From the NCBI GenBank assembly GCA_949127975.1, contig CASBRB010000181.1, forward strand, positions 1-32,932: a stretch of 32,932 nucleotides of DNA, written 5' to 3'. The stretch's first letter is position 1. Each line of letters starts with the position of its first letter. Under the pieces are notes generated by a model that was given only the letters and a program-made list of their open reading frames with translations, was not told the DNA's origin and ran no database searches. Made by a program: the position numbers and the translations under genes. The DNA comes from Oscillatoriales cyanobacterium PMM_0019. Its GTDB lineage: Bacteria; Cyanobacteriota; Cyanobacteriia; Cyanobacteriales; CASBRB01. Below, piece by piece: positions 4,837-27,508 of the stretch.

Positions 4837-6429
4837 CTAAGCTAAACTCACAGTTTCACGAATTTTTTCCTGGGGTAATTCCCTGGATAGCTTTGCCTCT
4901 TCTGCTAGAAACTCAGCCAACTGTGCTTCAATCTCGTTGCGCACAATCTGGCGATACTCTAGGAAATGCTCGTTGTGGGCGCAGACAGTGATGTAGTGGT
5001 CCCACACAGCAGGATTATTCTTAATAATACTAAACAGGTGGTGCCAGAACTTCCACCGCGTTGAGCGTTTCACACCCTGCCGCCAGATGACGATAGACAG
5101 CGCTCGCAAATCCACCCAGCTAGGGAATTTAAACGGAGTTTTTACCTTTGGCGCACCCAGCATCAAGAAACAGCGATAAGTGCGATCTAAATAGCGCTCC
5201 GGATCGTATAATTCCCAGAAAGCCTCCACATATTCGCGGGCAATTTCTTCCAGGGGTCGAGTTGGGATAAAATTCATCAAGGTAGTTTGGTTGATATTGC
5301 CATCGCTATGGCGCAACCGCCCTTCTTTTTCTAGGCGGTGCCAGAGTGCAGTATTGGGCAAAGCTTGCAGCATGGCGAAAGTAGTGGTAGGAATAGCTGT
5401 TTGCTCTGCAAACCGGGCAATCCGCGAACCCGATCCTGATTTTTCTCCATCAAAGCCAATAATAAAACCAGCAATCGGTCGCAACCCTGCCCGCGTCATC
5501 ATCTCCACAGCATCACTGAGAGGATTGCGCATATTCTGGAACTTCTTAGTTAGCTGTAAACTATCCTCGTCCGGCGTTTCAATTCCGATAAACACCGCAT
5601 CAAAAAAGCACTCTACCATTAACTCCATCAATTCCGGGTCTTGAGCCAAGTCAATGGAAGCTTCCGTATTAAACCGGAAGGGATACTGGTGTTCCGCTTG
5701 CCAAACTTTTAGCTCTTTGAGGAATAACTTGACATTGCGCTTATTGCCAATAAAGTTATCATCCACCATGAACACACCACGCCGCCACCCCAATTCGTAG
5801 AGGTAATTCAACTCTGCCAACAACTGTGCAGGAGTCTTAGTGCGGGGCTTCCGACCATAGAGAACAATAATATCACAGAATTCGCACTGGAAAGGACAAC
5901 CCCGCGAGAACTGTACAGACATCGAGTCATAAGCATCAAGCTCCAACAAGTCAAAGCGAGGAATAGGAGTGTTTGTGACATCTGGTTTTTCGCCGTTAGA
6001 GCGGAAAATACCACTGGTGTCACCCCGCTCAATTGCCTCTACAAACATTGGCAGCGTGATTTCCCCTTCATCCAGAATCATATAATCCGCACCCGCGTTA
6101 AGTGCTTCTTCAGGTACAGAAGTCGGATAGGGACCACCCACTGCTACCCGCTTACCGCGTCGCTTTGCTTCCCGAATTTGTTCTACTAAATCATCTTTCT
6201 GGACAATCATCGCTGAGAAGATGGCTACATCTGCCCATGCCCACTCCGCATCTGTCACAGGTCTAATATTTCGGTCTACAAGCTTGAAATCCCAAGCTTG
6301 AGGCAAAATTGCCGCCACTGTTACTAATCCTAAAGGTGGTAGCAGCACCTTGCGATCGACTAATTCCAGAATTTTTTCGTAAGACCAAAATGTTTTGGGA
6401 AATACGGGATAAATTAGCAAGACACGCAT
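4837..6429 (-). CDS. B12-binding-domain radical SAM protein
   Basis: A 530-residue enzyme with an N-terminal cobalamin-binding-like Rossmann domain (about 1-150) and a radical SAM domain whose CX3CX2C cluster motif is C178-PFQ-C182-EF-C185 within RGCPFQCEFCDIIVLYGRKP. The motif VFIGIETPD follows in the barrel, and a C-terminal region of the DUF4070 type carries YDPERYLDRTYR. Such proteins are architecturally related to methylases and cyclases such as HpnP and BchE, but the exact reaction is not readable here. It follows the cyclase-family gene by 49 bases on the same strand, so the two may be co-transcribed. A hopanoid C-2 methylase is one possibility that I cannot confirm. Confidence 0.88.
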   Translation of the reverse strand: MRVLLIYPVFPKTFWSYEKILELVDRKVLLPPLGLVTVAAILPQAWDFKLVDRNIRPVTDAEWAWADVAIFSAMIVQKDDLVEQIREAKRRGKRVAVGGPYPTSVPEEALNAGADYMILDEGEITLPMFVEAIERGDTSGIFRSNGEKPDVTNTPIPRFDLLELDAYDSMSVQFSRGCPFQCEFCDIIVLYGRKPRTKTPAQLLAELNYLYELGWRRGVFMVDDNFIGNKRNVKLFLKELKVWQAEHQYPFRFNTEASIDLAQDPELMELMVECFFDAVFIGIETPDEDSLQLTKKFQNMRNPLSDAVEMMTRAGLRPIAGFIIGFDGEKSGSGSRIARFAEQTAIPTTTFAMLQALPNTALWHRLEKEGRLRHSDGNINQTTLMNFIPTRPLEEIAREYVEAFWELYDPERYLDRTYRCFLMLGAPKVKTPFKFPSWVDLRALSIVIWRQGVKRSTRWKFWHHLFSIIKNNPAVWDHYITVCAHNEHFLEYRQIVRNEIEAQLAEFLAEEAKLSRELPQEKIRETVSLA

Positions 6430-6478
6430 AAAACCTCTTTTTTTTCAGGCTAGACAACAAAATCAACACCGAAAAATT

Positions 6479-7177
6479 TCACGGCACCAAAGCCATTACT
6501 GCGGCTGGTGAGCCAGAGCCATCTAACAAACGCAGGATACCGATAATCAAGGTAGTGCCCGTAGGCGTCAACTGGTTTAGATTAGCAAGATTCTCTAATA
6601 CTATGCGGGGTTTCTGCAAGACTAGGCGGTTGATAGCAAAGGTGCTATTTTGACCAGAATCTACTCCGTGAGTATCAATCCCCACGCCAACCACTTGACG
6701 TTCATCGAGCAAAAATTGGGTGGCATCATTGCTAAAACCTGGAAAATGTAAGCCAGCATTAGAGTTGAGGAACAGGGTAGGGTCTTGCCACTTTTCTTGC
6801 CAACCGGTGTATAATAAAACTATACTGCTTTTTGGGATATTACGGTATTTTTGCTCCCAAGCCCAGATATCGGCAAGACTCAACAGATAATCGGGATTGG
6901 CAGCAGATTGCGGACGAATATCAATTACTACTGCTGGCACAACTAGCGACTCGGCAGGATAGCGATCGATTCCCACCCCATCGGCGTAAAAACTTTTAGG
7001 CGCATTGATATGAGTAGAACTGTGTTCGCCTAGGGAGAAACTGCGCAAGTAATAACCATCATTTTCTAGTTGAGCTACTGTTTCAAATTCTACGGGTGGA
7101 TCTCCTGGCCATTGTGGGATATTTTGGTGGATGATATGACTTAGGTGAATTACTTTTGAATAAGCGATCGCTTTCAT
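6479..7177 (-). CDS. Cyclase-family (kynurenine formamidase-like) metal-dependent hydrolase
   Basis: A 232-residue protein of the cyclase/kynurenine formamidase fold. The N-terminal IHLSHIIHQNIPQWPGDPPVEFE and the metal motif HSSTHINAP (His52, His56, Asn58) identify the family; the usual motif is HxGTHxDxP, so Asn replaces Asp here. A later VVIDIRP and GVGIDTHGVDSG are also typical. Such enzymes hydrolyse amides or esters with Mn or Zn; the substrate is unknown, and no tryptophan-catabolism genes are nearby. The start MKAIAYSKV lies over a GCGATCGC site. It is upstream of the radical SAM gene by 49 bases, a likely operon. Confidence 0.87.
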   Translation of the reverse strand: MKAIAYSKVIHLSHIIHQNIPQWPGDPPVEFETVAQLENDGYYLRSFSLGEHSSTHINAPKSFYADGVGIDRYPAESLVVPAVVIDIRPQSAANPDYLLSLADIWAWEQKYRNIPKSSIVLLYTGWQEKWQDPTLFLNSNAGLHFPGFSNDATQFLLDERQVVGVGIDTHGVDSGQNSTFAINRLVLQKPRIVLENLANLNQLTPTGTTLIIGILRLLDGSGSPAAVMALVP

Positions 7178-7609
7178 AAAGATATGTTTATGTACAAGGG
7201 CATAGCCTGCCGTTCGTAGTGAGGGCTTTAGCCCTTACCCATTGATAGCGGAGAGAGTTAATCTGACAAGAGTTGTTTCCATTACCGATGACGGTTTTAC
7301 AGGTGGTAAGTTCCTGGTTGAGAAAATTATCTGCCTCAATGATAAACGTAGCAGGACTTACGGAACTACACTACATATAGTGGTTCGTAGGGGCAATCCC
7401 CCTGTGGTTGCCCCTATATATGCTACATATAGTGGTTCGTAGGGGCAATCCCCCTGTGGTTGCCCCTATATATGCCCAGTGTGCGTAAGTCTTGCGTAGG
7501 TTAGTAGTGAGGACTTTAGTCCTCACTACCTTACCCTATAGCCAGGCAACTGCAATTAAAGTTATAAAATATACATGGTATTACGCAATCAACCGATAAG
7601 AGTGTAGAT
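7178..7609. repeat. Repeat-rich intergenic region with a 52-bp tandem duplication
   Basis: Bases 7371-7422 and 7423-7474 are head-to-tail copies of one 52-bp unit, each with an 8-bp AGGGGCAA/TTGCCCCT hairpin. Two copies of the GTAGTGAGG(G/A)CTTTAG family lie at about 7215-7238 and 7503-7531. A TTG-started reading frame at 7242-7442 runs into the tandem repeats; its first 35 codons (VVSITDDGFTGGKF) look protein-like, so it may be a gene remnant, but I do not call it a gene. Confidence 0.75.
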
Positions 7610-27026: not shown

Positions 27027-27508
27027 ATGTGGATATTTTTAGACCTTGACGGTGTGCTTGTTCCTGAAAAAAATTCGACTCCTTCGTGAGCAGCGAAGAT
27101 CTGATGAAGTTCGACCCTGTGTGCTTGAGGGAGTTTGAAAATGTCTTGCGCTGCTATCCTCATGTGAATGTAGTTATCTCTTCATCCTGGCGAGAAGTAT
27201 TCCCATTCGAGGCTGTGCGTTACTTGTTTTCGCCTGATATTGCTGGCAGAGTTGTCGGATTTACTCCATTTTTGGACTGCGAAATTGTTCTTGATTTTAA
27301 ATACCTGCGTCACCAAGAGGTTCTTGGGTACTTACGACAAAATGAAGCATCAGACGCACCTTGGGTAGCTATTGATGACATCGCAGAACACTATCCACCA
27401 GATAGTCCCATTGTAGTCACGGATGCTTACATTGGATTCGATCGATCCGCAGCGCTGGCTTTGGAACAGTACATTCTCCTTGCCCAGCTATCCATAGGTA
27501 ATACCTAG
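27027..27508 (+). pseudogene. HAD-like phosphatase-domain gene with a frame break at an A7 run
   Basis: ATG at 27027 begins MWIFLDLDGVLVPEKN, which holds the HAD nucleophile motif (Asp6, Asp8), but stops at 27087. A second frame, shifted by -1, continues FDSFVSSEDLMKFDPVCLRE and carries the rest of the HAD domain: VVISSSWRE (motif II), a Lys in LDFKYL, and VAIDDIAEHYP (motif IV). The frames join at A7 (27067-27073): one extra A, or a -1 slip on A-AAA-AAT, gives a continuous protein of about 160 residues. The gene is related to HAD domains described in RNA-repair proteins. It is a recent pseudogene, a sequencing error or a slippage gene. The part from 27086 alone would lack the nucleophile. 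Confidence 0.8.

Follow-up and report, generated by a model that had tools for sequence, protein, structure and literature searches.

A HAD_SAK_2 gene of an Oscillatoriales cyanobacterium broken by one base at a run of seven A residues, possibly a recent private indel

The window, the whole 32,932-nucleotide stretch that was analysed (contig 181 of a 5.74-Mb genome in 512 contigs), carries on its forward strand a gene for a HAD domain that is divided between two reading frames at an A run, and to a recent and private one-base indel in an accessory gene we give an even chance of being the cause. The split, its place, the single-frame reading in 26 full-length relatives and the lack of other visible damage are observed, and the event is of an ordinary kind. 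A stand-alone accessory phosphatase gene of family PF18143 would have lost its frame very recently by the loss of one base, presumably in the DNA itself. Loss at or beside an A run is the usual outcome of replication slippage, which is the likely mechanism here, and the catalytic aspartates of motif I would thereby be parted from the main product, leaving an enzyme that is inactive or made in traces.

The first frame starts with the ATG at 27027–27029 and ends with the TGA at 27087–27089 (27027–27089, 20 codons and the stop), and its translation is MWIFLDLDGVLVPEKNSTPS followed by the stop. It contains HAD motif I as LDLDGVL, and the rest of the domain is found in the -1 frame, at 27068–27508 with a TAG stop at 27506–27508; this arrangement, including coordinates and frames, is as the original prediction had it. 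The nearest upstream stop of the -1 frame is at 27065–27067 and that frame is therefore open from 27068, while the open reading frame counted from the GTG at 27086 (27086–27508) gives 140 amino acids. The two frames overlap only in the 22 bases 27068–27089, within and just past the A run, and the join proposed at GAA-AAA-AAT (27066–27074) is confirmed, with the seven A residues at 27067–27073 in a G-A7-TTC context. The heptamer A_AAA_AAT lies in the right phase at 27068–27074, inside the overlap. The gene is single copy, with one match only in its own genome.

Both pieces belong to PF18143 (HAD_SAK_2, HAD domain in Swiss Army Knife RNA repair proteins). The downstream piece, read from the GTG at 27086, matches profile positions 24–137 of 139 with an E-value of 1.5e-18 and 67.9 bits (curated cut-off 27.5), and the upstream piece of 20 residues matches positions 2–16 with 0.0034 and 18.2 bits, which is below the 27.5-bit cut-off. 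Two intact relatives span positions 2–138 and 2–136 of the profile in one frame each, and since the two pieces fall in neighbouring ranges of one family the split is not due to chance. In the whole protein 37 of the 38 columns that are conserved in at least 90% of the relatives are kept, the sole change being Ile to Leu in motif I. The gene differs from the family in its broken reading frame and in standing alone. The DxDG of motif I (frame 0) and the main domain (frame -1) are not in the same polypeptide in the DNA as given. The first aspartate of motif I is the nucleophile of HAD phosphatases, and neither single-frame product should therefore be an active phosphatase. A role in RNA repair is suggested by the family name only; inspection of the window's open frames by eye showed no RNA-repair gene nearby. 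The downstream piece matched no NCBIfam family, and no solved structure was matched at E-values up to 1. Neighbouring genes encode a DUF2237 protein (PF09996), for which no NCBIfam family was found, and a CobW-like GTPase that scores below the curated cut-offs; a further near neighbour is presumably a glycogen synthase. When the open frames around six relative loci were compared by eye over the first 60 residues, no shared neighbour was recognised.

Relatives were collected by searches of 60, 386 and 388 genomes (overlapping sets) and from one named contig. The distribution of the gene is sporadic, with matches, own genome included, in 5 of the 60, 8 of the 386 (a sample of the phylum) and 26 of the 388 (the order). 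Three further genome-set searches gave no new copy, the matches in 2 of 20, 0 of 1 and 16 of 61 genomes all being copies already seen. The 31 relative copies (L002–L032), a set that covers genera and families other than the window's own, include 30 from the same phylum and one (L007) from a Competibacteraceae bin. By tblastn with one full-length relative as query, and by alignment, 26 of them have a whole or nearly whole domain in a single frame, and the frame transition is present in 0 of these 26, all from outside the genus and family of the window. The remaining five copies are fragmentary or damaged, with two in-frame stops in L028, short stop-bearing remnants in L013, L029 and L031, and no N-terminal part found for L030; loss of the gene thus seems to be tolerated. 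The original prediction had named further disabling mutations in relatives as evidence that would count against it; they are present in these five copies, but at other places. In L028 (1495–1953, minus strand) an A8 run lies in frame with one stop two codons past the run, an independent decay in the family. Two copies counted among the 26 full-length ones are otherwise intact but have an asparagine in place of one aspartate of motif I, L014 reading LDING (motif starting at 1441) and L021 LNIDG (starting at 1432); these residues suggest that the two may be inactive or drifting.

The run length, which the original prediction had proposed to compare, was examined at the break place in the window and 27 relatives and ranges from under 5 to 8 in the latter. 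Eight A residues are found in L003 and L028 and seven, in frame, in L009, L020 and L022, the remaining relatives having shorter runs or none, and the closest copies (L014, L016 and L032) are one codon shorter at this place, with A runs that do not reach 5. As read in the alignment, none of the copies seen shares the frame break of the window, and the A run is not conserved. The codon at the break is AAA, AAC, AAG, AGT, ACT or another in the relatives, so the lost letter is not surely an A; of the earlier proposal that one added A restores the domain, the one-base break at the A run stands but the identity of the missing base does not follow.

The frame downstream of the break is clean, as had been claimed: all 29 columns there that are conserved in at least 90% of the 26 relatives are kept without a stop, and any loss must therefore be young. 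In a neutral, substitution-only simulation with 1,500 replicates each, the probability that those columns all stay unchanged and no stop arises is 0.22 at 2% divergence and 0.044 at 4%, and the break is probably younger than about 4% divergence, or else the gene is not truly off. A clean downstream frame is equally expected from a consensus error or from a rescued gene. In the tree the end branch of the window is 0.29 long and the nearest row is L016 with 69% identity, which is weak for dating, and none of the well-supported groups with at most half of the rows includes the window.

That the gene is intact in the organism and the break an error of consensus or assembly, or the product of mixed strains merged into one consensus, is somewhat less than probable but has to be taken seriously. 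The break is at a homopolymer with the rest undamaged, and the genome resembles a metagenome bin: besides the many contigs, the shortest of 100 sampled ones is 2,533 bases long, which fits a binning cut-off of 2,500 bases and suggests such a bin, in which mixed strains might occur. The likeness to singleton frameshifts, in being one break that is validated by homology and absent from relatives, points the same way, as the available part of Antonov et al. 2013 (PMC3711429) expects BLASTp-validated singletons to be sequencing errors and not genuine indels; between the present break and the singleton frameshifted genes or young pseudogenes of prokaryotes treated there, no difference is notable.

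To look for errors in the assembly, about 0.94 Mb from 100 contigs and the window was set against 0.79 Mb of G025, which of the 60 searched genomes scored best for CysS (84% identity). A strict scan of 124 gene hits in the genome of the window (98 kb aligned) gave one frameshift candidate, and in the reverse direction five rows from three genes in 122 for G025. In a relaxed scan frame breaks were found at 3 of 295 coding places in the genome of the window against 5 of 267 in G025, the five being in three genes; the sampled part of this assembly thus has no excess of breaks over G025. The window's own break is invisible to the scan because the HAD gene was not found in G025, but tblastn with L008 as query splits the gene cleanly. 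The sample contains 335 A/T runs of at least 7, and the 21 that are checkable, lying well inside one homologous frame (13 of length 7, seven of length 8 and one of length 9), are all in intact frames. None of the three break places found is at an A/T run of 7 or more, the surrounding runs being at most 6. Together these two results argue against a general base-call problem; a single error is compatible with them, since 0 breaks in 21 still allows up to about 13% per run by simple arithmetic. Another frame-broken gene of the same genome, L093 at 6380–7443, encodes what we take from its Cys motifs to be a TnpB-type transposon protein. In G025, one gene (L126, 12467–13715, minus strand) changes frame three times relative to an open frame in the genome of the window and is probably decayed.

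It is unlikely that the break is a functional slip, in which either RNA polymerase adds an A in the run or ribosomes slip -1 on A_AAA_AAT to give a useful whole enzyme. The phase of the heptamer within the short overlap would allow it, and rescue of frameshifted genes by transcriptional slippage is described for insect endosymbionts in the available text of PMC3017870. In the portions at hand of two further papers, a human apoB mutant makes about one-tenth full-length product through an A added in its run of eight (PMC1088944), and in E. coli and Buchnera transcript insertions grow exponentially as runs lengthen (PMC5574713). With such a rise some extra-A transcripts are expected here, with no sign of a designed switch. 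In the 26 full-length relatives the domain is read without any slip. The run of seven is below the length of about nine taken for transcriptional-slippage genes and is not kept in relatives for alternative products; in the same portion of PMC1088944 a large share of genomes show selection against A/T runs once these reach nine, though the length varies.

The heptamer is neither rare nor avoided in this genome, as the 415 stop-to-stop open frames of 300 amino acids or more in the sampled genome contain it in frame 43 times, where 25.1 are expected from codon use, and 122 homology-supported frames contain it six times, where 6.2 are expected. According to the available part of PMC4066793, slipping in E. 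coli without stimulators is about 0.3% even for the three best V_VV.A_AA.G motifs; A_AA.A_AA.U is missing from the list of chosen motifs in that part, which shows little because the list also required under-representation. Inspection by eye of the 26 upstream bases showed no SD-like stimulator as defined there.

RNA folding was compared with 42 other heptamer sites (one of the 43 dropped out) and 830 random coding stretches. A weak local hairpin of six pairs at 27082–27098 (-7 kcal/mol with 27079–27105 folded alone) begins 7 nt past the heptamer, is ordinary for coding sequence here and is absent from the best fold of longer stretches. With the heptamer included, the fold of 27060–27140 has a z-score of -2.49, with 4 of 200 shuffles as low, and at offset 0 and length 60 no control site of the 42 and 19 of the 830 random stretches are as low; this is the fold evidence in favour of a slip. 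At offset 5 and length 60 the value is matched by 1 of 42 controls and 61 of 830 random stretches, the only low value among offsets 5–8. At length 60 and offsets 6–8 the controls that are as low number 7, 10 and 18 of 42 (at offset 6, 7 of 42 together with 111 of 830 random stretches). At length 40, 8–12 of 42 controls are as low at offsets 5–8, and at offset 7 8 of 42 controls and 240 of 830 random stretches are at least as low, and the corresponding numbers at length 80 (offset 7) are 6 of 42 and 101 of 830. The start of the strong fold coincides with the heptamer's end or slightly precedes it; the value remains low with offset 5 and fades from offset 6, and the fold at the usual spacing is mostly unremarkable, that at 6–8 nt being matched by many controls.

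The emphasis of the original prediction on a plausible -1 slippery site is not borne out, the frame transition and the site being unconserved, the heptamer common in frame and no convincing stimulator having been found; of its three readings, a very recent mutation and a base-call error survive. We give little credence to the A run acting as a low-level leak, supplying a trace of active HAD phosphatase in what is probably a free-living cyanobacterium, or as an on/off switch in the population. Least probable of all is a coupled split gene, in which the 20-codon leader ends in GTGA (27086–27089), where a GTG start overlaps the frame-0 TGA, and restart gives a HAD protein without motif I: the overlap, on which the original prediction is silent, would permit translational coupling but is probably due to chance, the GTG encodes a valine within the domain when the -1 frame is read through, the product would be without its catalytic aspartates, and 0 of 26 full-length relatives are split.

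The break resembles the poly(A)-tract frameshifts of Blochmannia and Buchnera, for which the available part of PMC3017870 describes a possible rescue by transcriptional slippage, in being a single indel in an A run with the rest of the frame clean. It differs from them in that the genome is not extremely AT-biased (40–47% G+C in the window), in that the HAD gene is sporadic and not core, and in the run of seven, as tracts of 9 or more are counted there. If rescue by slippage were true, the poly(A) rescue reported for endosymbionts would extend to a phototroph and to a run of only seven. Beyond annotation the break has little meaning, and the gene should be annotated as a frameshifted HAD_SAK_2 gene and not as a 140-residue protein without motif I.

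A search of phages gave no match at E-values up to 1e-5, and viral contigs gave no match in a search that reaches close relatives only. Plasmids carry distant HADs only, with less than 60% identity, in 674 records, 603 of which are from Klebsiella by organism name.
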